Below, piece by piece: positions 1,537 through 21,106 of a stretch of 39,388 bases of DNA. The stretch is from Burkholderiaceae bacterium (GTDB lineage: Bacteria; Pseudomonadota; Gammaproteobacteria; Burkholderiales; Burkholderiaceae_C). The stretch is taken from NCBI GenBank assembly GCA_905339355.1, contig CAJPFZ010000452.1:1-39388 (forward strand). The letters run 5' to 3'. The notes under the pieces were generated by a model. It was given only the letters and a program-made list of their open reading frames with translations. It was not told the origin of the DNA and ran no database searches. A program made the position numbers and the translations under genes. Within the stretch, counting starts at the first letter, position 1; the number at the start of each line of letters is the position of its first letter.

Positions 1537-3210
1537 TCAGCCGATGCGCGCCGCAGCCGCCCGTTCTTCCTCCTGGAGGCGCAGCATTCGCCGCTGCACC
1601 TTGCCGGTGGTCGTCATCGGCAGCGCGTCGATGAATTCGATCTCCTTCGGGTATTCGTAAGGGGCGAGCTTGCCGCGCACGTGCTGCTGCAGTTCCTCGG
1701 TCAATGCGGCGCTGCCGTCGAAGCCCGCGGCCAGGACGACGTAGGCCTTGACGACGGCCCCGCGCTCGGCGTCGGGCTTGGGCACCACCGCCGCGTTCGC
1801 GACCGCCGGGTGCTTGACCAGGCAGTTCTCGATCTCGCTCGGGCCGATGCGGTAGCCGGCAGCCTTGAAGACGTCGTCGCCGCGGCCCTGGTACCAGAGG
1901 TAGCCGTCGTCGTCCATCACCGCGGTGTCGCCGGTGCGGCACCACGAATCGGCCGGATCGCCGGTGAACTTGCGGCGCGTCGCGTCTTCGTTGTTCCAGT
2001 AGCCGAGGAAGAACACCGGGTCGGGATGGCCGTGGATGTCGCGCCGGTGCACCGCCACGTCGCCCGGCGTACCGCGCGGGCACTCGTTGCCGTTGTCATC
2101 GATCACCGCCACGCGGTGCCCGGGGTACGGCCGCCCCATGCTGCCGGGCCGCGCCGGCCAGCGCGCGGCGCAATTGCCGACCACGTAGTTGATCTCGGTC
2201 TGGCCGAACATCTCGTTGACCGTCACGGCGAGCTGGCGCTCGCAGTAGGCGAACACCGCGTCGCCGACCGCCTCGCCTGCGCTCATGATGGCGCGCAGGC
2301 ACAGCTGGTAGCGCTGCCTCGGCGCCGGCACGGCCTTCATCATCGCCTTCAGCGCGGTGGGAAACAGAAAGGTGTGCGTCACCCGATGGCGCTGCATCAG
2401 CTCGAAGGCCTTCTCGGGCGAGAAGCGGCCCTGGTAGGCGACGATCGTCCGGCCGAAATACAGCGTGGGCAGCAGCGCATCCATCAGCCCCCCGGTCCAC
2501 GCCCAGTCGGCCGGGCTCCAGAAGACCGCGTCGTGCTGCGGAAACCAGTTCTGGCTGCAGACGAAGCCGGTCAGGTTGCCGATGAGCGCGCGGTGCGGGA
2601 TCAGTGCCCCCTTGGGCGGGCCGGTCGTGCCGCTGGTGTAGATCAGCACCGCCGCCTCGTCGGCACGGGTCTGCAGCGCGGTGAACTCGGCTTGCGCATC
2701 GGCCAGCGCCGCGATCCAGTCGACATCGCCGCGGCCGCTCGCACCGCCGACGGCGATCACGCTTCGCAGTTGCGGGCACGCCGCCCGTGCCGCCAGCAGG
2801 TTGTCGACGGCGCTCTCGTCGACGATCGCGACCGCTGCCCCGCTGTCGTTCAGGCGGTATTCGAGCGCGTCGGGCCCGAACAGCATCGACAGCGGCATCG
2901 CCACCGCGCCCGCCTGGTAGATCGCCATGTGGGCCACGGCCGTCTCGAAGCGCTGCGGCATCACCACCGCAACGCGGTCGCCGCGCTGCACGCCCAGGCC
3001 GCGCAGCACGTTGGCGAGCCGCTGGGCGTCGTGCTGCAGCTCGGCAAAAGTGCGGCTCACCGCGCCGCCGTTCTCGTGCTCGTAGCGGATCGCCACCGCG
3101 GTCGGCGTGTCACGCGCCCAGCGTGCGCAGCACATCTCGGCAATGTTGAACAGCGCCGGCACGTGCCAGCGGAAGGAACGGTGGAGTTCGGCGTAGCGGT
3201 CGACGGTCAT
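1537..3210 (-). CDS. AMP-forming acyl-CoA synthetase (acetyl/medium-chain type)
   Basis: A 557-residue ANL-superfamily adenylating enzyme that activates a carboxylic acid to acyl-CoA through an acyl-AMP. Core motifs appear in order: the P-loop IYTSGTTGPPKG (about residue 190), FGQTEIN (A5), TGDTAVMDDDGYLWYQGR with the ribose-binding Asp (A7), GYRIGPSEIE (hinge A8) and the C-terminal TTTGKVQRR with the catalytic lysine. Length and the GYRIGPSEIE hinge resemble the acetyl-CoA synthetase-like/medium-chain (AcsM-like) branch rather than long-chain FadD. Nearby genes include an acetate-type transporter and sensor module, which would fit an acetate or short-chain substrate, but that link is inference. 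Confidence 0.88.
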   Translation of the reverse strand: MTVDRYAELHRSFRWHVPALFNIAEMCCARWARDTPTAVAIRYEHENGGAVSRTFAELQHDAQRLANVLRGLGVQRGDRVAVVMPQRFETAVAHMAIYQAGAVAMPLSMLFGPDALEYRLNDSGAAVAIVDESAVDNLLAARAACPQLRSVIAVGGASGRGDVDWIAALADAQAEFTALQTRADEAAVLIYTSGTTGPPKGALIPHRALIGNLTGFVCSQNWFPQHDAVFWSPADWAWTGGLMDALLPTLYFGRTIVAYQGRFSPEKAFELMQRHRVTHTFLFPTALKAMMKAVPAPRQRYQLCLRAIMSAGEAVGDAVFAYCERQLAVTVNEMFGQTEINYVVGNCAARWPARPGSMGRPYPGHRVAVIDDNGNECPRGTPGDVAVHRRDIHGHPDPVFFLGYWNNEDATRRKFTGDPADSWCRTGDTAVMDDDGYLWYQGRGDDVFKAAGYRIGPSEIENCLVKHPAVANAAVVPKPDAERGAVVKAYVVLAAGFDGSAALTEELQQHVRGKLAPYEYPKEIEFIDALPMTTTGKVQRRMLRLQEEERAAAARIG

Positions 3211-6011: not shown

Positions 6012-7487
6012 CTACCGCTGATAGTCGAGTTCGATGCGCTGCTGCAGCCTGCGGCCGACCCGCAGCGCTTCCTTCAGCACGCGCCGGTCGATGTCGTTCA
6101 GGGCGCCGACGTCGAGCAGGTTCGGCTTGCGCGATTCCTCGGCGTTGATGATCTGGGCGCGCAGCCTGAGCAGTTGCAGGTACTCGAAGCCGCCGATCCA
6201 GGCTTCGCTTTCGCTCGACGGAACCTTCAGCGCATGCGCGACCGCCTCGAAGCGGTGGCGCGTCCCGGTGTGCGGCACGCCGGTCGCGAGCGCATACAGC
6301 CGAGCGGCGTCGACGTAGATCATCGAGCCGTGGAACTTGAGGTCGAGCATGGCGCGGCCGTCGACCCGCTCGGTTTCGATCGCGCCGCGCCAGCTGAGCG
6401 GGGCCGTGTTGCGCAGGGCGTTCTCGGCCATCTGCTTGATGAAGCGCGGCAGGCGCTGCGCCTTGCTCGTCACCAGCTCGCGCATCGGGCGCGCGAGGTC
6501 GAGCCGCCCGACCAGCGGGCGAAAATCGAAATAGATCGACGAGGCCAGCAGATCCTCGGGGGCGCCGTGTTCCATCCAGTGGTCGAAGCGCGCACACCAC
6601 TCCTCGGAGGTCATGCAGCATTTCGGCTCGCCGGCCATCACGCCCCCCTTGCACAGAGGGTAACCGCAGGCGTCGAGCGCCTCATTGACACGCCGTCCGA
6701 ACGCGAGCCAGCGCGGCCGGTCGCGCTCGGGGTCGTCGCTCACGAACACCAGCCCGTTGTCCTGGTCGGTGGAGATGGTCTGCTCGGAGCGGCCCTCGGA
6801 GCCGAAGGTCAGCCAGCAAGCCTGCTGCAGGTCGAGGCCGTGTTCGTCGGCGAGCATCTGCACCAGGCGCTCGCTCAGCACGTCGTTGAGGTAGCTGATG
6901 AACTGCGTCAGCTGCAGCGAACCGACGCCCTGGCACAGCAGCTCGCGTGCCAGCCGGCGGATGTCGCGCGCCGCATGGGCGAGCGTGGGCACGTCCTGCG
7001 CGCCGCGGATGGTGGCGCTGACCTGCCGCAGCGACAGGCGCTGCATCGCGAACAGGTCCCGCTCGGACACCATGCTGACCACGCGCCCGCCCGGGTCGGT
7101 CACGGCGACGTGGCGGATGCCGCGGCGCGCCATCAGCAAGGCCGCGTCGTGGGCGGTGTCGTTGACCGTCAGCGTGTACACCGGCTTGCTCATCACCTCG
7201 GAGATCGGCGTCGTGAGCGGACGCTGCGGCAGGCTCACCCGGCCGAGGATGTCGTGGCGTGTCAGGATGCCCAGCGCCTTGCCCTCCTCGTCGAGCACCA
7301 GCAGCGAGCCGATGTGTTCCGCCTGCATCGTGCCCAGCGCCGTCGCGAGCGGCGTGTCGGCGCTCACGCCGACCAGCGCGCGCCGCGGCAGCTGCCCAAG
7401 CGGCGAATCGAGCGTCAGCTGCGCCAGCGCCTGCGAGGCGTGCTCTTCGAGCGCCGCCCCGGGCCGGTTGCTGAAGGCAGTGGACAT
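6012..7487 (-). CDS. CBS-domain pair plus DUF294 nucleotidyltransferase-like protein
   Basis: About 491 residues from the ATG at 7487; a GTG at 7508, immediately after the exonuclease stop, would add seven residues. Two tandem CBS motifs lie roughly in residues 40-165 (GSLLVLDEEGKALGILTRHDI and IRHVAVTDPGGRVVSMVSERDLF). They are followed by the DUF294 nucleotidyltransferase fold with GSEGRSEQTISTDQDNGLVF (GS-x8-DxD style catalytic pattern) and the DUF294 C-terminal helical domain. Members of this family are found beside acetate-type symporters and are thought to sense adenylates through the CBS pair. Last gene of the minus-strand sensing operon. The nucleotidyl acceptor is unknown. Confidence 0.88.
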   Translation of the reverse strand: MSTAFSNRPGAALEEHASQALAQLTLDSPLGQLPRRALVGVSADTPLATALGTMQAEHIGSLLVLDEEGKALGILTRHDILGRVSLPQRPLTTPISEVMSKPVYTLTVNDTAHDAALLMARRGIRHVAVTDPGGRVVSMVSERDLFAMQRLSLRQVSATIRGAQDVPTLAHAARDIRRLARELLCQGVGSLQLTQFISYLNDVLSERLVQMLADEHGLDLQQACWLTFGSEGRSEQTISTDQDNGLVFVSDDPERDRPRWLAFGRRVNEALDACGYPLCKGGVMAGEPKCCMTSEEWCARFDHWMEHGAPEDLLASSIYFDFRPLVGRLDLARPMRELVTSKAQRLPRFIKQMAENALRNTAPLSWRGAIETERVDGRAMLDLKFHGSMIYVDAARLYALATGVPHTGTRHRFEAVAHALKVPSSESEAWIGGFEYLQLLRLRAQIINAEESRKPNLLDVGALNDIDRRVLKEALRVGRRLQQRIELDYQR

Positions 7488-7508
7488 CGGGTCGGTCTTC
7501 ACAGGCAC

Positions 7509-9650
7509 TCAGTACTCGAGCTTGGCGTACAGCGTCTTCTGCGACGCCTCGCGGGCCTGCTTCAAGGTCCGGATGCCGCGTTCGGCGAGCAGCGGGATCA
7601 GCTTGAGGAAGACCTCGCCGGTGACGATCGCGTCACCCAGCGCCGTGTGCCGCCCGATGATCGGGATGCCCAGGCGCGCGGCGATGAGTTCGAGCCGGTG
7701 CTCCTCGTCGGCATGCCCCGGATGCACGAGCGCAGAGAGCATCAGCGTGTCGAGCACCGGCTGGATGAACTCGACCCCGGCCTGCGCCTGCGCCAGCTGC
7801 AGGAAGCGCATGTCGAAGGCCGCGTTGTGCGCCACCAGCACCGTGTCCTCGGCGAAGCGCTGGAAGGCCGGCAGCACTTCCGCGATGGGCGGCTGGTTGG
7901 CCAGCATCTGCATCGAGATGCCGTGAATCTTCTGCGACTCGCGCCGCACCGCCCGGCGCGGCAGCACCAGCCGGTCGAAACACTCCTGCTTCAGCAGCCG
8001 GCCGTTGACAATTCGCACCGCGCCGATCGAGATGATCTCGTCGCCCTCGGAAGGCGACAGCCCCGTGGTCTCGGTGTCGAACACCGTGTAGGTGAGGTCG
8101 CTCAGCAGCCGCTCGTCGAGTTCGGGGGTCTGGCCGGGCTGGCTGAAAAGGTCGAAGTCGTAGTAGACCGGCCGGCTCGGAATGCCCGCCTGCTTGGCTA
8201 CCGCCGGGGCCCCGACACGCGCCATCGGCAACTGCAGGCACAGCCGGCCCTGGCCGGTGGCGCGGTCGGATTGCGTCCAGGCCTCGGCACCGTGGCGCGC
8301 GAGCAGCTGCGCGAGCGTCGGGGCCGGTGCACCGGCGCCCTCCGCGTACGGCTCCTCCTCCCATTCGTGCAGCAGGTCGGGCTCCAGCGCCGGGCCGCTC
8401 CAGCACAGCGACAGCCGCATGAAACGCCCGGCGCCCTCGGCCTCGATCAGCACCGAGCGAATCGAGAAGCTTGCGGCGATGCGGCCCATCACGTGCGTCA
8501 GCGCATGCACCATCGCGTGGCTGTCCACGCTGAGCCACAAGGGGTCGTCGCTGCCGCGGCTGGCCGCGGTCACGCCGAGACGGCGCTCGAAGTTGCGCTG
8601 CAGCGCGTAGACGAGGTCGGCCGCCAGCATGTCCTCGAGCGGCCATGGCGTGCTCAGCAGCTGCGCCTCGGCGGCGGCAGTGGCGTCCAGCTTGGCCGAC
8701 AGGTGCTCGGCCTCGTCGTGGATCACCTGGGTGAAGCGGTGGCGTTCCTCGGTGTCCATGTCGGGGTACTGCTGCACCGTTTCCACCGCGGCGCGGATGT
8801 TGGCGAGCGCCGCGCGCGTGCCTTCGGTGAGCTGGCGCAGCAGCTGCTCGCGCCGAGTGTCCGACTCGACCGAGCGGGTGATGTCCTCGAGCATCAGCAC
8901 GAAGCCGCCGATCTCACCCTGCGCGTCGAGCACCGGCGCCATCTGCACCCGCAGCAGCTGGTCGCCGCGCGTGGTGACGAAGTGGGCCACCGGGTGCTCG
9001 ATCTGCTGCTCCACCCGGCGCGCGATCTTGTCCAGCGCATGCACGATCTGACTCTTGTCGAGGATGCCGAAGACCGAGCGGCCGAGGCCCACCGGCGCGC
9101 CGCCGGCGTCGCGGCGGTCGCTCTCCAGCAGCTGCGCGGCGCGCGGGTTGTAGAGCAGGATGCGCCCTTCGCTGTTGCACACCAGCACGCTGTGGGCCAG
9201 CTCCGACATCAGCGCCGCGAGGCGATTCTTCTCTTCCTCCAGGCGCCGGTGCGCCTCGGCGATGCGCGCCTGCACGTCGCGCCGCAGCGTGTCGAGCGCT
9301 TCGGCCAGGGCGTTGATCGTCTCGGCCAGCTGGCGCATCTCGGCGCCGCCGGCAGGCGCCACGCGGTACTCGGGATTGACGGTGTAGATCAGCACCACCT
9401 CCTCGGCCATGCGCTCGGCGGCCAGCGGGTAGCGCTTCATCCACCAGCTCAGCACGACGCCGAGCAGGAAGGGCAGCAGCAGCGCCATGCTGATCAGCAG
9501 CGGCACCCGCGCTCCGAGGAGGTTCTCGAAGGCGGTTCGCTGCGCCGCGTCGTGGCTCGTCCACCAGGCGAGGCCCGCCAGCACGAACAGCCCGATGACG
9601 AACAGGGTCAGTGCGGCGAGCCACAGCGCGAATCGGGCCTTGAACCCCAC
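7509..9650 (-). CDS. Membrane PAS/degenerate histidine-kinase protein fused to a DEDDh 3'-5' exonuclease
   Basis: A 713-residue fusion with a GTG start at 9650, three bases after the response-regulator stop. Residues 9-31 and 50-70 are membrane helices; a HAMP-like helix and a PAS domain follow (about 130-240, VLVCNSEGRILLYNPRAAQLLE). A dimerisation-like helix sits at about 268-325, but the H-box reads LTEGTRAALANIRAAVE and has no phospho-acceptor His. The ATPase part is barely recognisable. From residue 521 there is a complete DnaQ/PolC-epsilon exonuclease: FDTETTG (D525, E527), HNAAFDMRFL (D613) and GRHTALGDA (H668, D673). All DEDDh residues are present, so nuclease activity is expected. 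The role in a signalling operon is not established. Confidence 0.85.
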   Translation of the reverse strand: MGFKARFALWLAALTLFVIGLFVLAGLAWWTSHDAAQRTAFENLLGARVPLLISMALLLPFLLGVVLSWWMKRYPLAAERMAEEVVLIYTVNPEYRVAPAGGAEMRQLAETINALAEALDTLRRDVQARIAEAHRRLEEEKNRLAALMSELAHSVLVCNSEGRILLYNPRAAQLLESDRRDAGGAPVGLGRSVFGILDKSQIVHALDKIARRVEQQIEHPVAHFVTTRGDQLLRVQMAPVLDAQGEIGGFVLMLEDITRSVESDTRREQLLRQLTEGTRAALANIRAAVETVQQYPDMDTEERHRFTQVIHDEAEHLSAKLDATAAAEAQLLSTPWPLEDMLAADLVYALQRNFERRLGVTAASRGSDDPLWLSVDSHAMVHALTHVMGRIAASFSIRSVLIEAEGAGRFMRLSLCWSGPALEPDLLHEWEEEPYAEGAGAPAPTLAQLLARHGAEAWTQSDRATGQGRLCLQLPMARVGAPAVAKQAGIPSRPVYYDFDLFSQPGQTPELDERLLSDLTYTVFDTETTGLSPSEGDEIISIGAVRIVNGRLLKQECFDRLVLPRRAVRRESQKIHGISMQMLANQPPIAEVLPAFQRFAEDTVLVAHNAAFDMRFLQLAQAQAGVEFIQPVLDTLMLSALVHPGHADEEHRLELIAARLGIPIIGRHTALGDAIVTGEVFLKLIPLLAERGIRTLKQAREASQKTLYAKLEY

Positions 9651-9653
9651 GAT

Positions 9654-10040
9654 CTAGCTTCCCTCCCCGTCGGCGCCGAGCTGCACGCGTATTTGCGCAA
9701 GCAGGTCCTTGGTCGAGAACGGCTTGGTGACGTAGATGTCGGCGCCCAGCGCCATGCCCTTGCTCATCTCGACGTCCCGGCCCTTGGCGGTGAGCATGAT
9801 CACCCGCACGTGCGACCAGGCGGGGTTCTCGCGGATCTTCTGGCAGACGTGGAAGCCGCTGACCCGCGGCAGCATCACGTCGAGCAGCACCAGGTCGGGT
9901 GTCGTCAGCTGCATCATGTCGAGCGCCTCCTGGCCGTCGCGTGCGACCAGCACGTCGTAGCCGTCGCGCTTGAGAAGGTACTCCAGCGAAATGACGATGT
10001 TCGGTTCGTCGTCGGCAATCAGGATGGTCTTGCTCATCAT
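9654..10040 (-). CDS. Single-domain response regulator (receiver only)
   Basis: A 128-residue stand-alone REC domain. The acidic pocket is DDE at 10-12, the phospho-acceptor is D54 (LVLLDVMLP), the switch Thr is in VIMLTAKG and the conserved Lys is in VTKPFS. The start at 10040 overlaps the kinase stop as ATGA, implying translational coupling. No DNA-binding or enzymatic output domain exists, unlike the LuxR-type partner CrbR or NtrC-type CbrB of related kinases. It therefore presumably acts by protein contact, possibly on the adjacent exonuclease fusion; this is inference. Confidence 0.92.
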   Translation of the reverse strand: MMSKTILIADDEPNIVISLEYLLKRDGYDVLVARDGQEALDMMQLTTPDLVLLDVMLPRVSGFHVCQKIRENPAWSHVRVIMLTAKGRDVEMSKGMALGADIYVTKPFSTKDLLAQIRVQLGADGEGS

Positions 10041-12808
10041 CGGCTTTCTGTTTCGGCGAGGGCGAGCGGCGCGGCGTCTTCGTCGGGGGCCCGCAGGGGC
10101 ACGGTGAAGGAGAAGGTCGACCCGCGGCCCAGCCCGCTCCTGACCCACAGCTTGCCACCGAAATGCTGGACGATCTGGCGGCTGATCGGCAGGCCGAGCC
10201 CCGTTCCCTGCGGCTTCTCAGTCAGCGTGTCGCCGACCTGGCGGAACTTCTCGAAGATGATTTCATGGTCGGACGGCGCGATGCCGATGCCGTTGTCGCG
10301 CACGTCCACCTGCAGCGCATCGGGCAGCACGTGCAGCGCGATCGTGATGCGCCCTTCCTGGCGGTCGCAAAACTTCACCGCGTTGGAGATGAGGTTGAGC
10401 ATCACCTGCATCAGCCGGTCGCGGTCGGCCCGCACCGGCGGCACCTCGTCGGGCAGCTCCAGCGCGAGCGCGACGTGGTTCTCGCGCAGCAGCTGGCTGG
10501 TGGTGGAGACGGCATCGTGTATCACGTCCTTGAGATTCAGCTCGGTCGAGTGCCACTCGGCGCTGCCCGACTCGAGCTTGGAGAGGTCGAGCACCTGGTT
10601 GATCATGCGCGTCAGGCGCTCGCTTTCCTTGACGATGATCAGGATGAACTCGCCGCGCTTGTCGGTGGGCATCTCCGGGTTGTCGTGCAGGATCTCGGAG
10701 AAGGCGCGGATCGAGGTCAGCGGCGTGCGAAGTTCGTGCGTCACGGTGGAGATGAAGTCGTCCTTCAGGCGGTCGAGTTCCTTGAGCCGCTCGTTGGCGG
10801 CGCGCAGCTCGGCGGTGGCCGCCTCCAGGGCGCGCGACTTCTGCTCCAACTGGTGGCTGTAGGCGATGACCTGCGACGCTTCGTCGAGGATGTCGAGCAC
10901 CTCGTCCATGCCCAGCGGCTCCTCCTTCACCACCGAGGCGAGCATCACGCGCGCCGACGAGGCGCCGATCGCGCCGGCCAGGAGGTTCTCGGCAAAGTGC
11001 ATCAGCGCCGCGTCGGGCTCGAGCTGATCGACCGAGGCCACGCCGCATTGCGCGGCATAACCCGCAAACGCCTCGCGGGCGCGTTGCGGCCCGATGAAGC
11101 GGCCCACCAGCGTGCGCATCTCCTGCACCGAGGCACTGCCGCGCCACAGGCTGGAGTTGCGGCTCGCGATCTTGAACACGTCGACGAACAGCAGCGCCTG
11201 CGCGTGGTCGCGAATGCTCTGCCGCCCAAGCAGCGACACCGTGGCGTAGCCGCCGACGTTGAACAGCATGCTCCAGAACATCGCGTGGCTGATGTCGTCC
11301 AGCCCCGCCAGGCCGAACAGCGCATAGGGCTTGAGAAACTCGATGCCGAACGGCCCCTGCTCGATGAACGAGATCGGCAGCCAGCCCGACTTCGCGAACG
11401 AGGGCAGCAGCAGCGTGTAGGCCCACAGCAAGAAGCCGAGCGACAGCCCGGTCAGCGCGCCGGCGCGCGTGCCTTCGCGCCAGTACATGCCGCCGAGCAT
11501 GGCCGGGGCGAACTGCGCCACCGCGGCGAACGACACCAGGCCGATCGACACCAGCGCGTAGGCTTCGCCCGCGATGCGGTAGTAGGCGTAGCCGAGCATC
11601 ATCAGCGCCACGATCGCGCCGCGCCGGATCAGCAGCAGCAGCCCAGACAGGTCGCGGCTCTCGGCCAGCGCGAGCGCCTTCCAGCGCAGCAGCAGCGGCA
11701 TCACGAGGTCGTTGCAGATCATCGTCGACAAGGCGATGGTCTCGACGATGACCATGCCCGTGGCCGCCGACAGGCCGCCGATGAAGACGAACAGCGCGAG
11801 CGCCTCCTGCCGGTGCGCCATCGGCAAGGTCAGCACGAAGGTATCGGCGTCGACCTGCCCGGGCGAAAAATGCATCAGGCCGGCGAAGGTGATCGGCAGC
11901 ACGAAGATGTTGATGGCCAGCAGGTACAGCGGCAGCAGCCAGATCGCCTTGGCGACGTGGTTCTCGTTGACGTTCTCCACCACGCTGATCTGGAACTGGC
12001 GCGGCAGGAACAGGATGGACAGCATCGACAGGAAGATGAGCGAGGCCCACGAGCCGTAGCTTGCCGCCGAATCGCCGAGCGTCAGCAGCTTGGCGAGTTC
12101 GGGCCGCTGCGAGGCGCGCTCGAACAGGTCGCCGAATCCGCTGTACAGCCCGAAAGTGATGAACACGCCGACGGCCAGGAAGGCGAGCAGCTTCACGAGC
12201 GACTCGAACGCCACCGCCGCCACCATGCCTTCGTGGCGCTCCGTGGCGTCGAGGTGGCGCGTGCCGAAGACGATGGTGAAGGCCGCGAGCAGCAGCGCCA
12301 CGTACAGCGCCGTGTCCTGCAGCACCGCCACTGCCTCCTTCTGCGGCATCACGACTTCGGGGTACTGCAGCAGCAGGATGAAGCTGTTCGAGACCGCCTT
12401 CAGCTGCAGCGCGATGTAGGGGATCACCCCCACCACCGCGATCACCGTCACCAGCCCGCCCAGCAGGCTGCTCTTGCCGTAGCGCGCGGCGATGAAGTCG
12501 GCGATCGAGGTGATGCGGTTGACCTTGCTGATGCGGATCATCTTGCGCAGCACCAGCCACCACAGCGCGGCGATCAGCGTCGGCCCGAGGTAGATCGGCA
12601 GGAAGCCCACCCCGTTCGCCGCGGCGCGGCCCACGCTGCCGTAGAAGGTCCACGAGGTCGCGTAGACCGCCATCGACAGCGCGTAGATGTAGGGGTTCGC
12701 GATGATGGAGCGGCCGGCGTCGGCGCGCTTGTCGCCGTAATAGGCGATCGCGAACAGCACGCCCAGGTACGCGAAGGAGGTGAGGAGGACGACGCCACCG
12801 AGCAGCAT
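10037..12808 (-). CDS. Sodium/solute symporter-sensor histidine kinase hybrid (CbrA/CrbS type)
   Basis: A 923-residue protein. Residues 1-510 are an SSF transporter domain with about 12-13 membrane helices (opening LLTSFAYLGVLFAIAYYGDKRAD; VYATSWTFYGSVGRAAANG). Residues 560-650 are a linker that may hold the STAC-like region. A coiled coil (SRALEAATAELRAANERLKELDRL) leads into HisKA (THELRTPLTSIR, His 691) and HATPase_c (N-box about 809, DNGIG 838, GTGLG 869). The architecture matches CbrA/CrbS kinases that respond to histidine, carbon balance or acetate. Its direct partner is the translationally coupled receiver gene. The SSF part may transport as well as sense. Confidence 0.92.
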   Translation of the reverse strand: MLLGGVVLLTSFAYLGVLFAIAYYGDKRADAGRSIIANPYIYALSMAVYATSWTFYGSVGRAAANGVGFLPIYLGPTLIAALWWLVLRKMIRISKVNRITSIADFIAARYGKSSLLGGLVTVIAVVGVIPYIALQLKAVSNSFILLLQYPEVVMPQKEAVAVLQDTALYVALLLAAFTIVFGTRHLDATERHEGMVAAVAFESLVKLLAFLAVGVFITFGLYSGFGDLFERASQRPELAKLLTLGDSAASYGSWASLIFLSMLSILFLPRQFQISVVENVNENHVAKAIWLLPLYLLAINIFVLPITFAGLMHFSPGQVDADTFVLTLPMAHRQEALALFVFIGGLSAATGMVIVETIALSTMICNDLVMPLLLRWKALALAESRDLSGLLLLIRRGAIVALMMLGYAYYRIAGEAYALVSIGLVSFAAVAQFAPAMLGGMYWREGTRAGALTGLSLGFLLWAYTLLLPSFAKSGWLPISFIEQGPFGIEFLKPYALFGLAGLDDISHAMFWSMLFNVGGYATVSLLGRQSIRDHAQALLFVDVFKIASRNSSLWRGSASVQEMRTLVGRFIGPQRAREAFAGYAAQCGVASVDQLEPDAALMHFAENLLAGAIGASSARVMLASVVKEEPLGMDEVLDILDEASQVIAYSHQLEQKSRALEAATAELRAANERLKELDRLKDDFISTVTHELRTPLTSIRAFSEILHDNPEMPTDKRGEFILIIVKESERLTRMINQVLDLSKLESGSAEWHSTELNLKDVIHDAVSTTSQLLRENHVALALELPDEVPPVRADRDRLMQVMLNLISNAVKFCDRQEGRITIALHVLPDALQVDVRDNGIGIAPSDHEIIFEKFRQVGDTLTEKPQGTGLGLPISRQIVQHFGGKLWVRSGLGRGSTFSFTVPLRAPDEDAAPLALAETESR

Positions 12809-12823: not shown

Positions 12824-13024
12824 TCAGGATCCGCGCCGCTCGACGATCAGGATCATCAGCACGATCAGTCCGATCCACACGCCGAACAGGTAGACGTACA
12901 GCAGCGGAACGCCGAACAGCGTGCCTCCGGTGTTGAACAGGGCGAGCAGCGGATAGCTGAACAGCAGGCAGCCGAGCAGGAACAGCGCCACCAGGCGCTG
13001 CGCTTGCACAGGACGATGAGCCAT
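12824..13024 (-). CDS. Small two-helix membrane protein preceding the SSF kinase (CbrX-like position)
   Basis: A 66-residue protein from ATG 13024 with membrane helices at about 10-32 (RLVALFLLGCLLFSYPLLALF) and 38-60 (GVPLLYVYLFGVWIGLIVLMILIV), ending in a basic tail. It starts 15 nt upstream of the kinase ATG on the same strand, so it heads that operon. A small orf in this position is known for cbrA in pseudomonads (cbrX), where it couples translation; equivalence here is inference from position and size only. Confidence 0.75.
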   Translation of the reverse strand: MAHRPVQAQRLVALFLLGCLLFSYPLLALFNTGGTLFGVPLLYVYLFGVWIGLIVLMILIVERRGS

Positions 13025-13073: not shown

Positions 13074-13105
13074 AAAAAAAAAGCCCCGCTCTTGCGAGCG
13101 GGGCC
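13074..13105 (-). terminator. Rho-independent terminator of the symporter operon
   Basis: Read on the minus strand, a GC-rich perfect stem GGCCCCGCTC / GAGCGGGGCT with a short GCAA loop is followed by a run of ten T residues. It lies about 20 nt after the symporter stop and 50 nt before the start of the next minus-strand gene. It therefore separates the transporter operon from the sensor-kinase operon. Confidence 0.93.
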
Positions 13106-13122: not shown

Positions 13123-15246
13123 TCAGGCCTTGGCCGTTTTCAGGTCGGGGTAGCGCACATGCTCCACCAGGTCCTGCGTGTCCTTGCGCGGCTGGCCGGT
13201 GAACAGGCTCACGATGATGATCACCGCGAAGCCGATCGGCACGCCGAACAGGCCGGCCGAGATCGGCTGGATGCCCCACCACAGCTCGACCGGCGAGGTC
13301 ACGCCGAAGATCCCGCGCATCCACGGTTGCGTGGTCACCATGTAGTAGAACGTCGTGCCCAGGCCCGCGATCATGCCCAGCGAGGCGCCCCATTTGTTGG
13401 CGCGCTTCCAGAAGATGCCGAGCACCAGCGCCGGGAAGAACGCCGCAGCAGCGAACGAGAACGCCGCGGAAACCAGGAACAGGATGTCCGCCGGCTTCTG
13501 CGCCGCGACGGCCGCCGCAGCCAGGGCCACGACCAGCAGCAGCGCCTTGGAGATCGTCACGCGACGGGCGGTCGGTGCGTTCGGGTCGATCATCTTGTAG
13601 TACAGGTCGTGCGACAGCGCGTTGGCGATGGTCAGCAGCAGGCCGTCCGCGGTGGACAGCGCCGCGGCCAGGCCGCCGGCTGCCACCATGCCCGACACCA
13701 CGTAAGGCAGTCCGCCGATGGCGGGGGTTGCCAGCACGATGATGTCGCCGCCGATCTTCATCTCACCCAGCTGGAACAGTCCGTCCTTGTTGACGTCGAC
13801 CACCGACAGCAGGGTCGGGTCGACCTTCTGCCAGGCAGCGATCCACTCGGGCAGCTGGGCGAACGATGTTCCGACCAGGGTGTTGAAGACTTCGTACTTG
13901 ACCAGCACAGCGAGCGCAGGCGCGGTGAAGTAGAGCAGGAAGATGAAGAACAGCGACCAGGTAACCGACTCGCGCGCCTCCTTCACCGATGGCGTGGTGT
14001 AGTAGCGCATCAGGATGTGCGGCAGCGCGGCCGTACCCACCATCAGGCAGAACACCAGCGCGAGGAAGTTGCGCCGAGACTCGTTGAAGGTCTTCTGTGC
14101 GGCAGCGTCGCCGTTCGGGTCCCCAGCGAAGACCTGTGCATGCGGAGGCATGCCGGCCAGCGGCTTGGCGCGTGCGTCGGCGCCGGCCTTCGCCGTCGTC
14201 CACGCCTTCTTCGCATCAGCCTCGTTCTTGGGAATGGCGGCCAGCGCCTTCTCGGCGGCCTGAACGTCGGCCACCGGAGCGGTTGCCGACTTGAGTTCGG
14301 CCAGCTTCTGCTCGGCGGCGGCGCGGTCGGCCGCAAGCGCCGTCGGGATGTCCTTCAGCTTGGCGGCCAGGGAGTCGGACTGCGCCTTGAAGAAGGCAAT
14401 GACTTCCTGCTCCTTCGGATCGTTCTTGAGCTGGTTCTCGCGCTCGGTCACCTTCTGCAGCTGCATGCCGTAGATGGCTTGCGGCACGGGGATGCTCGTC
14501 TGCTTGACCGACAGCCACACCACCGGGACCATGTAGGCAATGATCAGGATGATGTACTGCGCGACCTGCGTCCAGGTGACGGCACGCATGCCGCCGAGGA
14601 AGGAACAGACCAGAATGCCGCCGAGGCCCACGAAGATGCCGACCTCGAACGCGAGGCCCGACAGGCGCGCCGTGATGATGCCCACGCCGTAGATCTGCGC
14701 CACCACGTAGGTGAAGGAGCACAGGATGGCGGCGACGATGCCGAGGAAGCGCGGAAGGTTGCCCTCGTAGCGCGCGCCGAGGAAGTCGGGAATCGTGAAC
14801 TGCCCGAACTTGCGCAGGTAGGGTGCGAGGAACAGCGCCACCAGGCAGTAGCCGCCGGTCCAGCCCATGATGAAGGCGAGTCCGCCGTAGCCCGTGAGGT
14901 ACAGCGTTCCGGCCATGCCGATGAACGACGCCGCGCTCATCCAGTCTGCGCCGGTTGCCATGCCGTTGTAGACCGCGGGCACTCGCCGGCCGGCCACGTA
15001 GTACTCGGCCGCGTCCGTCGTGCGGCTCATGATGCCGATGCCGGCATACAGAGCCACCGTCGCGATCAGGAAGATGAAGCCGATCCAGTTGCGCGGCAAT
15101 CCCATCTGCTCGAGGATGGCGAGCACGATGATGAACGCGAGGAAGCCGCCCGTGTACCAGAGGTACACCTTGTTCAGTTGAGCCTTGAACGCCCGGTTGG
15201 CTGCGGCGGCACTGCCGCCCGTTGGTGCCGAATTGAAGCCTGCCAT
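13123..15246 (-). CDS. Sodium:solute symporter (acetate/monocarboxylate permease, VC_2705-like) with a large charged insertion
   Basis: A 707-residue SSF transporter. The N-terminal half shows the family signature around residues 80-135 (EYYVAGRRVPAVYNGMATGADWMSAASFIG) and TIPDFLGARYEG at 151. The C-terminal half has GGLAAALSTADGLLLTIANALSHDLYY, the most conserved SSF motif. Residues about 262-392 form a soluble Ala/Lys-rich, coiled-coil-like insertion that makes it well over 100 residues longer than ActP-type permeases. It follows the DUF4212 subunit by one nucleotide, the standard two-gene arrangement for this subfamily. The substrate is probably acetate or a related short carboxylate, from family knowledge. 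Confidence 0.9.
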   Translation of the reverse strand: MAGFNSAPTGGSAAAANRAFKAQLNKVYLWYTGGFLAFIIVLAILEQMGLPRNWIGFIFLIATVALYAGIGIMSRTTDAAEYYVAGRRVPAVYNGMATGADWMSAASFIGMAGTLYLTGYGGLAFIMGWTGGYCLVALFLAPYLRKFGQFTIPDFLGARYEGNLPRFLGIVAAILCSFTYVVAQIYGVGIITARLSGLAFEVGIFVGLGGILVCSFLGGMRAVTWTQVAQYIILIIAYMVPVVWLSVKQTSIPVPQAIYGMQLQKVTERENQLKNDPKEQEVIAFFKAQSDSLAAKLKDIPTALAADRAAAEQKLAELKSATAPVADVQAAEKALAAIPKNEADAKKAWTTAKAGADARAKPLAGMPPHAQVFAGDPNGDAAAQKTFNESRRNFLALVFCLMVGTAALPHILMRYYTTPSVKEARESVTWSLFFIFLLYFTAPALAVLVKYEVFNTLVGTSFAQLPEWIAAWQKVDPTLLSVVDVNKDGLFQLGEMKIGGDIIVLATPAIGGLPYVVSGMVAAGGLAAALSTADGLLLTIANALSHDLYYKMIDPNAPTARRVTISKALLLVVALAAAAVAAQKPADILFLVSAAFSFAAAAFFPALVLGIFWKRANKWGASLGMIAGLGTTFYYMVTTQPWMRGIFGVTSPVELWWGIQPISAGLFGVPIGFAVIIIVSLFTGQPRKDTQDLVEHVRYPDLKTAKA

Positions 15247-16625: not shown

Positions 16626-17730
16626 ATGGACATCGAACGCATCAACGCGATCGGCGCGAAGCTTGCCGATCTGACAGAGCGCACCGCGGCGCTAAGGGGG
16701 TATCTTTGACTACGACCGCAAAGCATTGCGGCTGAACGAGGTCAACGCGGCCCTCGAGAACCCCAACGTCTGGAACGAGCCCAAGCGCGCCCAGGAGCTC
16801 GGCCGCGAGAAGCGGCAGCTGGACAACGTGGTCGAGACCATCGACCACCTGACGAGCAACCTGTCGGACAACACCGAGCTGTACGGCATGTCCAAGGACG
16901 ATGGCGACATGGACGGCCTGGCCGCCATCGAGGCCGAAGCCGGCAAGCTCGAAGCGATCGTCAAGGACCTCGAATTCCGCCGGATGTTCAACAACCCGGC
17001 CGACCCGAGCAACTGCTTCCTCGACATCCAGGCCGGCGCCGGCGGCACCGAGGCCTGCGACTGGGCGCAGATGCTGCTGCGCCAGTACCTGCGGTACTGC
17101 GAGCGCAAGGGCTTCAAGGTCGAGGTCATGGAAGAAAGCGAGGGCGACGTGGCCGGCATCCGCAGCGCCACGCTGAAGATCGACGGCGACTACGCCTTCG
17201 GGCTGCTGCGCACCGAGTCCGGCGTGCATCGCCTGGTGCGCAAGAGCCCGTTCGACTCCTCCGGCGGGCGCCACACCTCGTTCGCAAGCGTGTTCGTCTA
17301 CCCCGAGGTCGACGATTCGATCGAGATCGAGATCAACCCGGCCGACGTGCGCACCGACACCTACCGCGCCTCGGGCGCGGGCGGCCAGCACATCAACAAG
17401 ACCGACTCGGCCGTGCGCCTCACGCACGTGCCCACCGGCATCGTCGTGCAGTGCCAGAACGACCGCTCGCAGCACCGCAACCGCGACGAAGCGTGGCAGA
17501 TGCTGCGCTCGCGCCTGTACGAGCACGAGATGCGCAAGCAGCAGGCCGAGCAGCAGAAACTCGAAGACAGCAAGACCGACGTCGGCTGGGGCCACCAGAT
17601 CCGCAGCTACGTGCTCGACCAGAGCCGAATCAAGGACCTGCGCACCAACGTGGAGATCTCCAACACGCAGAAGGTGCTGGACGGGGATCTCGACCAGCTC
17701 ATCGAAGCCTCGCTGAAGCAAGGTGTTTGA
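16626..17730 (+). CDS. prfB: Peptide chain release factor 2, with programmed +1 frameshift
   Basis: Translation starts at ATG 16626 ([20 protein letters not shown]), reaches an in-frame TGA at 16707-16709 after 27 codons and continues in the +1 frame from GAC at 16708 to the TGA at 17728. This gives a 367-residue RF2, close to the usual 365. The shift site is the classical AGGGGG-TAT-CTT-TGA-C. RF2 features are clear: the SPF anticodon-like tripeptide in [11 protein letters not shown], which reads UGA/UAA, and the GGQ motif in [16 protein letters not shown]. The residue four before GGQ is Ala, not the Thr reported for E. coli K-12. The HAD gene starts directly at the stop codon, so this heads an operon. 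Confidence 0.97.
16695..16710 (+). promoter_or_regulatory. prfB autoregulatory frameshift signal
   Basis: The anti-SD-binding AGGGGG is spaced three bases before CTT and is followed by TGA-C, the standard RF2 shift site. When RF2 is scarce, the slow TGA is bypassed by slippage of the Leu codon CTT to TTT, and full-length RF2 is made. The sequence is the canonical one. Confidence 0.95.
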
Positions 17731-18417
17731 GTGGCGATCGCTGCATTGCTGTTCGATCTCGACGGCACGCTGATCGACAGCATGCCGCACCACCACCTCG
17801 CCTGGCAGGAATGGCACCGGCGCCGCGAGCTGCCGTTCGACGAGGACGGTTTCTTCACCGCCACCGCCGGGCGTGCCAATGCCGAGATCATGCGCGAGCT
17901 GCTGCCGGGGCGCCCGAGCGACGACTACCTCGTGATGGCCGACGAGAAGGAAACCCTCTACCGCGAGATCGCGGCGCAGTCTCTGGAGCTGATCGCCGGC
18001 TTCGAGGCGCTGCGCGCGGCGGCGCGCGAGCGTGGCATGAAGCTCGCGATCTGCACCGCGTCGACCCCCGAGAACATGGCGCTCGCGTTCGAGCGCTTCG
18101 GTCTCGATGCGCAGATGGACACCGTCGTGAGCCCGGCCGATGGCCTGCGCGGCAAGCCCGAGCCGGACATCTTTCTCGAAGCCGCCCGGCGGCTCGGTGT
18201 GCCGCCGGCCGAGTGCGTGGTGTTCGAGGACGCGCCGCTGGGCATCGAGGCCGCGCGGCGCGCAGGCATGCCGGCCGTGGCGCTGACCACCACGCTGCCA
18301 GCCGCTGAATTCACGGCGCACGACAACATCGTCGCCGTCGCGGCCGACCTGACCACGATCGACCTGGACACGCTGGAGCGCAGCGTGAACGACAAGAAGG
18401 AGACCTCTCATGCGTGA
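17731..18417 (+). CDS. HAD-superfamily phosphatase, beta-phosphoglucomutase-like
   Basis: A 228-residue hydrolase with a GTG start at 17731, abutting the prfB stop. The nucleophile motif is FDLDGTLIDSMP (D9, D11), motif II is the Thr in ICTASTPEN, the motif III Lys is in GKPEPDIF and motif IV is VVFEDAPLGIEAARRAG. The helical cap (residues 20-85) is the type-1 cap of beta-phosphoglucomutase/phosphoglycolate phosphatase relatives. Likely a cytosolic sugar-phosphate phosphatase; the substrate is unassigned. Its 3' end overlaps pepN by 8 nt. Confidence 0.87.
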   Translation: MAIAALLFDLDGTLIDSMPHHHLAWQEWHRRRELPFDEDGFFTATAGRANAEIMRELLPGRPSDDYLVMADEKETLYREIAAQSLELIAGFEALRAAARERGMKLAICTASTPENMALAFERFGLDAQMDTVVSPADGLRGKPEPDIFLEAARRLGVPPAECVVFEDAPLGIEAARRAGMPAVALTTTLPAAEFTAHDNIVAVAADLTTIDLDTLERSVNDKKETSHA

Positions 18418-21106
18418 AGGCACTGCCAACCTGATTCGCCGCGAAGACTACACGGCGCCGGCATTCTGGATCCGCTCGGTCGACCTGAGCTTCGACCTCG
18501 ACCCGGCGAAGACGCTGGTCATCAACCGCATGCAGCTCGAGCGCAACGCCGACGTGCCGGCGCAGCCGCTGAAGCTGCACGGCGAGGATCTCAACCTCAC
18601 GCGCGTGCTCGTCAACGGCGAGTCGGTCTCGTTTCGGCACGAAGACGGCATGCTGGTGATCGACTCGCTGCAGGGCGTGCCGCCAGGCCCGTTCTCGCTC
18701 GAGATCCGCAACACCTGCGCGCCGGAGAAGAACACCCAGCTTTCGGGCCTGTACACCTCGGGCGGCGGCTTCTTCACCCAATGCGAGGCCGAGGGCTTTC
18801 GCCGCATCACCTACTTCCTCGACCGCCCCGACGTGATGGCGGTCTACACCGTCACGCTGCGCGCCAACAAGCAGCACTACCCGGTGCTGCTGTCCAACGG
18901 CAACCTCGTGGAGCAGGGCGACCTCGACAACGGCCGCCACTTCGCCAAGTGGCACGACCCCTTCCCCAAGCCGAGCTACCTGTTCGCGCTGGTCGCCGCC
19001 GACCTCGTGGCGCGCGAGCAATGGGTCACCACCCGCTCGGGCAAGAACCACCTGCTGCAGGTGTACGTGCGCCGCGGCGACCTCGACAAGACCGAGCACG
19101 CGATGAACTCGCTGATCGCCTCCGTCGTGTGGGACGAGGCGCGCTTCAAGCTGCCTCTCGATCTGGAGCGCTTCATGATCGTCGCGGTGGGCGACTTCAA
19201 CATGGGCGCGATGGAGAACAAGGGCCTGAACATCTTCAACACGAAGTACGTTCTGGCCAACCCGGCGACTGCCACCGATGCCGACTACCTGGGCATCGAG
19301 AGCGTGGTCGGCCACGAGTACTTCCACAACTGGACCGGCAACCGCATCACCTGCCGCGACTGGTTCCAGCTGAGCCTGAAGGAGGGTCTCACCGTCTTCC
19401 GCGACCAGGAGTTCAGCATGGACATGGCGGGAAGCGCCTCGGCGCGCGCCGTCAAGCGCATCGACGACGTGCGCATGCTGCGGCAGACGCAGTTTCCCGA
19501 GGACGCCGGCCCGATGGCGCACCCGGTGCGGCCCGACAGCTACGTCGAGATCAACAACTTCTACACCTCCACCGTGTACGACAAGGGGGCCGAAGTCGTG
19601 CGCATGATGCAGACGCTGGTCGGCCGCGACGGCTTCGCGCGCGGCATGACGCTGTACTTCGACCGCCACGACGGCACCGCAGTCACCTGCGACGACTTCG
19701 CGCAGGCGGTGGCCGACGCCAACCCGCAGAGCGAACTCGCGCGGCTGCTGCCGCAGTTCAAGCGCTGGTACAGCCAGGCCGGCACGCCGCGCGTGACCGC
19801 GCGAGGCCGCTACGACGCGCCGTCGCGCACCTACACGCTGCTGCTCGAGCAGCATTGCGCCGCCTCGCCCGGCCAGGCCGACAAGAAGCCCTACGTGATT
19901 CCGATGGCGATGGGCCTGATCGGGCGCGACGGCCGTTCGCTCGCGCTGCAGCTGGAAGACGAAAGCATGCCGGTCAGCGGCTCGTTCGCCACCGAGCGTG
20001 TGCTGGTGCTGTCGGAAGAACGCGAGTTCTTCACCTTCGTCAACGTCGATGAGGAGCCTGTGCCTTCGCTGCTGCGCGGCTTCTCGGCGCCCGTGACGCT
20101 CGCCGACGGCCTGGGCGACGCGGAGCTGTTGCTGCTGCTGCAGCACGACCCGGACCCCTTCAACCGCTGGGAGGCGGGCCAGCGCCTCGCCCTCGCCCGC
20201 CTGCTTGCCGCGGTGAACGGCGACGGTGGCCTCACGCTCGACACACCGTTCATCGACGCCATGCGCAGCGTGCTCAGGCACCCGGCACTGGACGCCGCCT
20301 TCAAGGAGCTGGTGCTCACGCCGCCGAGCGAAATCTACGTCGCCGAGCAGCTCGAAGCCGTCGACCCGCAGCGCATCCATGCGGCCCGCGAAGCCATGCT
20401 GCTGCAGCTCGCGCAGGCGTTGCGCGAAGACTGGGTCGAGGCCTTCGAGGCGAACCAGGTGACCGGCGGCTACTCGCCCGACCCGGTGTCGGCCGGCAAG
20501 CGCTCGCTCGCCAATCTGGCGCTCGCCATGCTGTGCCTCGATGCGGTTCAGCGCGGCGATGCCGTGTGGCCCGGCCGCGCCTACCAGCGCTTCAAGGACG
20601 CGGCGCACATGACCGATCGCCAGGGTGCGCTGGTCGCGCTGGTCGGCGCGGGTTCCGAACTCGCCGACCCTGCGCTCGCGCGCTTCTACGAGCTGTTCAG
20701 GCACGAGGCGCTGGTGATCGACAAGTGGTTCGCGCTGCAGGCGACCGCACCCGAGGCCAACGGCCGCGTGTTCGCACGCGTGAAATCACTGATGCAGCAC
20801 CCCGACTTCACGCTGAAGAACCCGAACCGCGCACGCAGCCTGGTCGGCGCGTTCTGCATGGCCAACCCGGCGGCGTTCCACCGCCCCGACGCGGCGGGCT
20901 ACGTGTTCTGGGCCGACCGCGTGCTCGAACTCGACGCGCACAACCCGCAGCTCGCATCGCGCATCGCGCGCGTGATGGACCGCTGGAGCCGCCTCGCCGA
21001 GCCCTACCGCGGCGCAGCGCGCGAAGCGGTCAGCCGCGTGGCGGCGACGCCCGATCTCTCCAACGACGTGCGCGAGATCGTCACGCGGGCACTGGCGGAC
21101 CAATGA
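18410..21106 (+). CDS. pepN: Aminopeptidase N (M1 zinc metallopeptidase)
   Basis: An 898-residue cytosolic aminopeptidase, close to E. coli PepN (870). The exopeptidase motif GAMENKG starts at residue 266. The zinc site HEYFHNW begins at residue 302 (HExxH), with the third ligand Glu in the following [11 protein letters not shown]. Further conserved segments are [16 protein letters not shown] (catalytic Tyr) and the long C-terminal helical domain. The ATG at 18410 has AAGGAG just upstream and overlaps the preceding HAD gene, so the two are probably co-translated. Confidence 0.96.

Follow-up and report, generated by a model that had tools for sequence, protein, structure and literature searches.

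A degenerate histidine kinase core fused to a DEDDh exonuclease, conserved beside a transporter-type sensor kinase and a bare receiver in Burkholderiales and beyond

The output of most two-component systems is transcription, motility or a second messenger. Among those with SLC5-type sensors, CbrB controls transcription, and so do CrbS/R and RpuS/R as far as the excerpts of their descriptions go. RetS-GacS is the precedent for a heterodimer between a pseudokinase and a kinase. A dead kinase core is found in DivL of Caulobacter: according to the excerpts of PMC4211667, this core senses the single-domain receiver DivK~P through the face on which receivers usually dock and acts as neither kinase nor phosphatase, its Arg553 (three residues past the phosphoacceptor place, H+3) weakens DivK~P binding when changed to Ala, and DivL acts on the kinase CckA. 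Here we describe a protein in which a histidine kinase (HK) core that has lost its phosphoacceptor His is followed by a DEDDh exonuclease. Its gene lies at 7509-9650 on the minus strand of a 39,388-nucleotide stretch (contig CAJPFZ010000452.1 of the Burkholderiaceae assembly GCA_905339355.1; below, "the window" is this whole stretch), beside the genes of a receiver-only regulator and an SLC5-type sensor kinase. Titles and abstract beginnings of the open-licence papers listed in our searches contained no description of a pseudokinase-exonuclease fusion.

The open reading frame (ORF) proposed for the fused gene in a preliminary description of this DNA stands: it encodes 713 amino acids (aa) from a GTG start located 3 bases past the stop codon of the receiver gene. 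Its features, all on the minus strand, are the following.

7509..9650, minus strand: pseudokinase-exonuclease of 713 aa, in the order transmembrane part (TM)-PAS-pseudoDHp-pseudoCA-DEDDh (ORF, Pfam, AlphaFold2)
9381..9644, minus strand: N-terminal membrane-length helices and an adjoining helix, aa 3-90 (AlphaFold2 helices 3-32, 35-73 and 75-90; hydrophobic by eye)
8883..9203, minus strand: PAS domain, aa 150-256 (Pfam PAS_4 at 154-261, E 7.5e-10)
8661..8879, minus strand: pseudo-DHp helical hairpin, aa 258-330 (AlphaFold2 hairpin; profile match to solved kinases and DivL)
8823..8825, minus strand: codon of Glu276, which replaces the phosphoacceptor His (profile alignment; His in 0/153 rows)
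8814..8816, minus strand: codon of Arg279 (H+3), Arg in 151/153 rows and aligned with DivL Arg553 (counts; profile alignment)
8217..8645, minus strand: degenerate CA domain of HATPase fold, aa 336-478, without the N-box Asn and the G1 Asp (structure match to 1ysr; residue counts)
7536..8105, minus strand: DEDDh 3'-5' exonuclease domain, aa 516-705 (Pfam RNase_T, E 9e-35; fold match to 9qpc)
8076-8078, 8070-8072, 7812-7814, 7647-7649 and 7632-7634, minus strand: codons of D525, E527, D613, H668 and D673, the DEDDh active site

The RNase_T/Exonuclease match of Pfam covers residues 523-681, and at E 0.001 Pfam detected neither HisKA nor HATPase in the protein. NCBIfam matches to WalK, NblS and PnpS over the PAS domain and the following helices all stayed below cut-off. 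The AlphaFold2 model built from 73 sequences (mean predicted local distance difference test score, pLDDT, 82.5; predicted template modelling score, pTM, 0.38) contains the two N-terminal helices, the PAS region, a hairpin (258-294/300-330), an alpha/beta domain (339-476) and the exonuclease; the arrangement of these domains in the model is unreliable because the pTM is low. As structure comparison of the whole model reached only residues 509-704, the HK core was folded and compared on its own, and residues 255-480 modelled alone had a mean pLDDT of 89.7. We read the protein as a membrane-anchored, probably signal-controlled nuclease. A decayed gene or an assembly artefact was considered and rejected: fused relatives have uninterrupted reading frames, and the protein is conserved. 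Since the H-box motif and the five nuclease residues are conserved in relatives, the fused architecture is not a matter of chance.

We then looked at the region between the PAS domain and the exonuclease. A profile of 67 HK-core sequences matched 5c93 in the PDB with E 9.4e-12 over positions 1-219, nearly the entire region, and DivL (4q20) came third by E-value (1.6e-10). The CA model matched the ATP-binding domain of PrrB (1ysr) with a VIA-align Z of 14.9 and a root-mean-square deviation (rmsd) of 2.5 over 132 aligned residues. Because of these profile matches and this fold match, the region is a true HK core with the DHp-CA fold. It keeps that fold and lacks the phosphoacceptor His, the N-box Asn pair and the G1 Asp of an active kinase. 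The H-box reads LTEGTRAALANIR, and when the profile is aligned with solved kinases, Glu276 falls under their phosphoacceptor His and also under the Tyr of DivL. His was found at this site in none of the 98 relatives of a first set and in none of the 153 rows of a later one (window included), where Glu or Asp occupies it in 126. The CA-domain sites were positioned via the same alignment: Asn is absent from site 386 (0/153) and nearly so from site 390 (4/153), and at site 417 the G1-box Asp is gone (Asp 0/153, Trp 150/153). An active kinase with a displaced His was also considered, as eight rows (L167, L170, L172, L174-L177 and L212 in our locus numbering) have His at the H-box Pro (281); this residue, five beyond the site, was not counted as an H-box His because the phosphoacceptor place itself is non-His in these rows. 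To judge by its residues, the fused core should not autophosphorylate or carry phosphate on His. The core is conserved rather than decaying; besides Arg279, Glu313 on the pseudo-DHp hairpin is kept in 148 of the 153 rows.

The exonuclease, by contrast with the kinase core, is complete: all five catalytic residues are kept in 224 of 224 unique loci, and by this pattern the DEDDh exonuclease of the fused protein is probably alive. Its predicted fold matched the DNA polymerase structure 9qpc, PolC-type by sequence family (Z 24.2, rmsd 1.8, 189 aligned), and E. coli epsilon, 2gui (Z 21.6, rmsd 1.6, 165 aligned). The fused enzyme thus shares the fold and all five catalytic residues with PolC/DnaQ-type DEDDh exonucleases, but it stands behind a PAS domain and a pseudokinase, is predicted to be membrane-anchored, and has no polymerase gene in the neighbourhood read. 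That polymerase-associated exonucleases are its nearest folds would suit a plain housekeeping role, in which a DnaQ-like proofreading or repair exonuclease was fused by chance to a decaying kinase. This is very improbable, given that, judged by kinship codes, two or more classes of the phylum share the conserved fusion and its neighbourhood, that the kinase core is not decaying, and that among the NCBIfam matches listed (25 of 36) only the general model TIGR00573 lies above cut-off (115.3 vs 71.5). A defence system was considered as well and set aside. PADLOC placed only DEDDh and PDC-S48 models on the exonuclease and matched the receiver weakly (PD-T4-6, SduA, PDC-M60B), with no match on the kinase or on the DUF294 protein encoded downstream; the usual partners of the fused gene, which are transport and signalling genes, also disfavour this reading.

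Up to this point, the preliminary description holds. It had read membrane helices and a PAS domain (now two membrane-length AlphaFold2 helices, hydrophobic by eye, and PAS_4), an H-box without His, to which the loss of the N-box Asn pair and the G1 Asp is added, and five intact DEDDh residues; homologues with an intact H-box, which would have pointed to an active kinase, were sought and none was present in either set. As an interpretation it appears right in outline and is partly supported by the sequence comparisons.

With DivL as a model, and because Arg279 stands at the place of DivL Arg553, we propose a two-component pathway with a nuclease at its end, to which we assign a probability of about 0.48. 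The SLC5-type kinase (10037-12808) would be the sensor of a carbon substrate or of its transport, and would phosphorylate the receiver-only regulator (9654-10040). The phosphorylated receiver may then dock, in a phospho-dependent manner, on the pseudo-DHp hairpin of the fused protein, whose former kinase core would serve as an input domain and, together with the PAS domain, set the activity of the C-terminal DEDDh exonuclease. Candidate substrates would be RNA, DNA or short nucleotides near the membrane. The proposal draws on architecture, loss of kinase residues, conservation of nuclease residues, the conserved gene neighbourhood and the joint retention of receiver and pseudo-DHp, all seen by sequence, fold and comparison; we infer the active nuclease, the phospho-dependent docking, the sign of control and an acetate- or pyruvate-like signal. 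Like DivL, the fused protein has a PAS domain in front of a HK core that lacks the phosphoacceptor His and is here proposed as an input domain; it keeps Arg at H+3, and its presumed partner is likewise a single-domain receiver. Unlike DivL, which according to the excerpts of PMC4211667 works on CckA and was demonstrated there to bind its receiver, it carries a DEDDh exonuclease after the core, its receiver binding is proposed from sequence, and Glu or Asp mostly stands where DivL has Tyr. By this analogy we propose a DivL-like reading of a receiver joined to a new output domain. If this is true, pseudo-histidine kinases would have a further well-defined role besides DivL, and the natural loss series described below would be available for tests.

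Natural losses of the hairpin bear on this proposal. Many members of family f95 and some other relatives lack the hairpin and the CA domain, or have a shortened hairpin. Among the 224 unique loci (short flanks included), 151 have a full DHp with an adjacent receiver and 59 have a lost or partial DHp without one, while 13 have a full DHp alone and only 1 has a lost DHp with a receiver. Nine loci (L177, L175, L174, L295, L249, L231, L187, L020 and L037) were dropped, either because the N-terminal part was poorly filled or because no receiver was seen with less than 700 bases upstream, and L210 was recoded as receiver-present for a divergent receiver-like ORF (54 bits) adjacent to it. The remaining 215 loci comprised 149 with both, 54 with neither, 11 with DHp only and 1 with receiver only. 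Because relatives share history, we paired the loci on a tree built without the DHp and CA columns. In 7 supported independent pairs the receiver changed in the same way as the DHp in 5.8 on average and in the opposite way in 0 (sign test, median p 0.03). Seven genomes represented among the 12 full-DHp loci without an adjacent receiver (five Accumulibacter, G083 and G842) keep one elsewhere beside the kinase, at 58-64% identity. When receivers elsewhere in the genome were counted, the numbers became 156 both, 52 neither, 4 DHp only and 3 receiver only, and the pairs 5.6/7 (median p 0.03, range 0.03-0.22). A single deletion cannot cause the co-loss, since the membrane and PAS part, which is kept, lies between the receiver gene and the DHp. 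The preliminary description had named the receiver as a candidate controller of the fused protein, and this co-retention lends it support.

Several observations weigh against the proposed pathway. On a reduced IQ-TREE tree of 117 representatives the pairs fell to 4.7/6 (p 0.06). At L183 (G100, receiver adjacent) the pseudo-DHp and CA are lost and the receiver and kinase kept, and at L286 (G935) and L287 (G781) they are lost too, but the kinase and a downstream receiver are kept; all three are fragmented assemblies. G647 (L273, DHp lost), with a 46% receiver beside its kinase elsewhere, is a possible fourth exception, and its inclusion gives 156 both, 51 neither, 4 DHp only and 4 receiver only, with 5.2/7 pairs (median p 0.06, range 0.03-0.38). 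Such a receiver is present in 3 of the 17 searched genomes with a lost or shortened DHp. Conversely, L015, L016 and L276 have a full pseudo-DHp and yielded no orthologous receiver (L111 was outside that search), and L168 and L169 have an adjacent receiver with no kinase within the 12 kb viewed. A coevolution scan (mutual information with average product correction) of receiver against pseudo-DHp in 153 pairs found no enrichment; it says nothing either way, because the true-kinase control (98 pairs) was also without signal. The mean entropy of the receiver helices was 0.96 bits for alpha1, 2.05 for alpha2, 1.36 for alpha3, 1.11 for alpha4 and 1.56 for alpha5, and the low variability of alpha1 is what any receiver might show. 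The raw counts link receiver and pseudo-DHp strongly, but correction for the tree leaves the link borderline, and it is not without exceptions.

These exceptions bear on a different explanation, namely that the kinase core is only a dimerisation and membrane scaffold, that the PAS or TM part controls the nuclease, and that the receiver acts elsewhere. Receivers without a DHp in L183, L286 and L287 fit this. Moreover, of 46 loci that lack all three of DHp, CA and adjacent receiver, 42 keep both the membrane and the PAS part with the exonuclease, so the DHp is dispensable for a conserved protein. A mere scaffold leaves unexplained both the co-loss with the receiver and the near-invariance of Arg279 and Glu313 on the hairpin, and we consider it unlikely.

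We further examined how widely the fused gene and its neighbours occur. A tblastn scan of the collection at E 1e-3 gave at least 565 stretches, other exonucleases possibly included, of which the best 80 were analysed. The receiver-only regulator, presumably cognate, adjoins the fused gene in 73 of these 80 loci; a kinase core lies nearby in 71, and its SLC5 half was seen in 69. Six of the seven loci without a receiver belong to Accumulibacter; the remaining one is truncated by the end of its contig. Five Accumulibacter genomes were searched and carry kinase and receiver elsewhere; that of L105 has a second fused copy beside them. The Accumulibacter copies distant from kinase and receiver (L072, L074, L094, L105, L109 and L111) retain the full pseudo-DHp. 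In evenly drawn genomes the fusion was found in 45 of 398 of the phylum (E 1e-50), 72 of 149 of family f95 (1e-40) and 16 of 289 of the class of f95 (1e-40); in the window's own genus it was found in 3 of 5, the window's genome included. The fusion is conserved in other Burkholderiales, a check that the preliminary description had suggested, and also beyond; the labels of the loci include Methylibium, Azoarcus, Thauera, Pseudomonas sagittaria and Marinobacter. The fused gene also occurs on contigs of metagenome-assembled genomes labelled Chloroflexales (L041), Deltaproteobacteria (L075) and Caldilineaceae (L082), one each and by label only. In 25 of 27 f95 genomes searched, an SLC5-kinase of 41-44% identity lies away from the fused gene, whether the pseudo-DHp is kept or not, and those inspected have a receiver match next to it. 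So widespread and conserved a gene set points to a nuclease output, reached via a receiver that a dead kinase would read.

The other features of the locus are as follows.

13123..15246, minus strand: VC_2705-family sodium/solute symporter, upstream (TIGR03648, 794.5 bits, cut-off 320.75)
13074..13104, minus strand: likely intrinsic terminator (hairpin and T-run) between the symporter gene and the operon, read by eye
12824..13024, minus strand: hydrophobic protein of 66 aa encoded directly ahead of the kinase gene, resembling CbrX in position and size only (sequence)
10037..12808, minus strand: SLC5-type sensor histidine kinase of 923 aa, catalytic motifs intact (HisKA, HATPase_c; match to 10ed)
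9654..10040, minus strand: receiver-only response regulator of 128 aa (Pfam Response_reg, E 3.3e-29)
6012..7508, minus strand: CBS-CBS-DUF294-DUF294_C putative nucleotidyltransferase, directly downstream of the fused gene (Pfam E 4.7e-44 and 5.6e-35)

In the kinase, an SLC5 transporter half is joined to HisKA-HATPase. Residues 7-473 matched PDB entry 10ed with E 1.1e-74, which bears out the carbon-type sensor kinase that the preliminary description had placed in the operon; the Pfam SSF model gave no report on this half. The entry is labelled "histidine kinase", and we infer from the excerpts of the preprint PMC13022988 that it is CbrA. All 98 loci examined keep the catalytic residues of this kinase, namely the H-box His, both N-box Asn and the G1 Asp. 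The start of the receiver gene overlaps the kinase stop (ATGA), its Asp54 and Lys106 are invariant (153/153), and it carries neither a DNA-binding nor an enzyme domain. In this the window differs from the systems of the SLC5/STAC kinases CbrA, CrbS/MxtR and RpuS: the regulator consists of a receiver only, and the next gene encodes the fused nuclease. CbrX, a small protein that binds the SLC5 part of CbrA in the excerpts of PMC13022988, precedes CbrA as the small hydrophobic protein precedes the kinase here. A hydrophobic ORF of 45-110 aa ahead of the kinase passed the filter in 74 of 79 loci, and the 40 printed ones look alike. The 66-aa ORF has no PDB match by sequence and no Pfam family; homology to CbrX was not upheld, as the profile search gave one chance-level match, to a capsid protein (E 1.7).

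The kinase neighbour could also mean that the pseudokinase core heterodimerises with the SLC5-kinase and tunes it, as RetS does, the nuclease being a passenger or a second output. The neighbourhood is the same as for the proposed pathway, the HK-core fold normally dimerises, and the kinase core is near the fused gene in most of the 80 loci. Against such a heterodimer, 8 of the loci of at least 9 kb with a full DHp have a receiver and no SLC5-kinase in the stretch, and at the sole locus with a kinase and no receiver (L281) the receiver lies just outside the stretch. The nuclease is not a passenger either, since its residues are invariant also in the loci that lost the DHp. We regard this explanation as clearly unlikely.

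The downstream DUF294 protein, whose GS...DQD motif was read by eye in the window, allows a reading compatible with the proposed pathway. The DUF294 nucleotidyltransferase would add nucleotides to RNA 3' ends or to a protein, the exonuclease would remove them, and the two-component parts would regulate this eraser. All 12 DHp-lost loci of at least 9 kb carry a DUF294 gene, as do 62 of the 96 of that length with the DHp, so the tie between nuclease and DUF294 is independent of the receiver. A second pairing occurs in L062, where, about 5 kb past the fused operon, a cNMP-CBS-DUF294 protein (17348-19183) stands with a PRK09145-type exonuclease (290.9 bits, cut-off 189) of 243 aa with RNase_T-type domains only. 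Because of this pair, two exonuclease subfamilies adjoin DUF294 proteins. A described counterpart is the P. putida operon in which, according to the excerpts of PMC9927547, the RNase_T-family exonuclease gene pp_0353 accompanies the CBS gene pp_0354 and is a target of MxtR/ErdR; pp_0353 matters there for growth on pyruvate, not on acetate under the conditions used. As in the window, an exonuclease gene thus stands beside the gene of a CBS protein under an SLC5-kinase system. The L062 pair is of the pp_0354/pp_0353 kind, differing in exonuclease subfamily from the fused enzyme. The DUF294 tie, together with such pairs, is the ground for this writer-eraser idea. We hold the idea unlikely, as 34 of the 108 loci had no DUF294 match above 100 bits and the DUF294 protein could act independently.

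The preliminary description had also called the pairing of nuclease and carbon sensing unexpected. This should be tempered, as an exonuclease in a carbon-sensing setting has a precedent in pp_0353, one of the MxtR/ErdR targets described in the excerpts of PMC9927547. If the proposed pathway is true, it would give a hint where to seek the reason why P. putida needs pp_0353 for growth on pyruvate. The two ideas may be joined: a carbon-sensing transporter-kinase would drive, via the bare receiver and the dead kinase, a membrane exonuclease that undoes DUF294 writing on RNA 3' ends or protein. This combination is quite unlikely; if true, the output of a two-component system would be a writer-eraser pair acting on nucleotides, not transcription.

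Two minor observations concern the surroundings. The DUF294 protein of the window is without the cNMP-binding domain that is present on those of L169, L291 and L062. About 3 kb from the operon, at 1537-3210 on the minus strand, the window encodes an AMP-forming acyl-CoA synthetase, whose best NCBIfam match is acetate--CoA ligase PRK04319 (394.5 bits, below the cut-off of 729).

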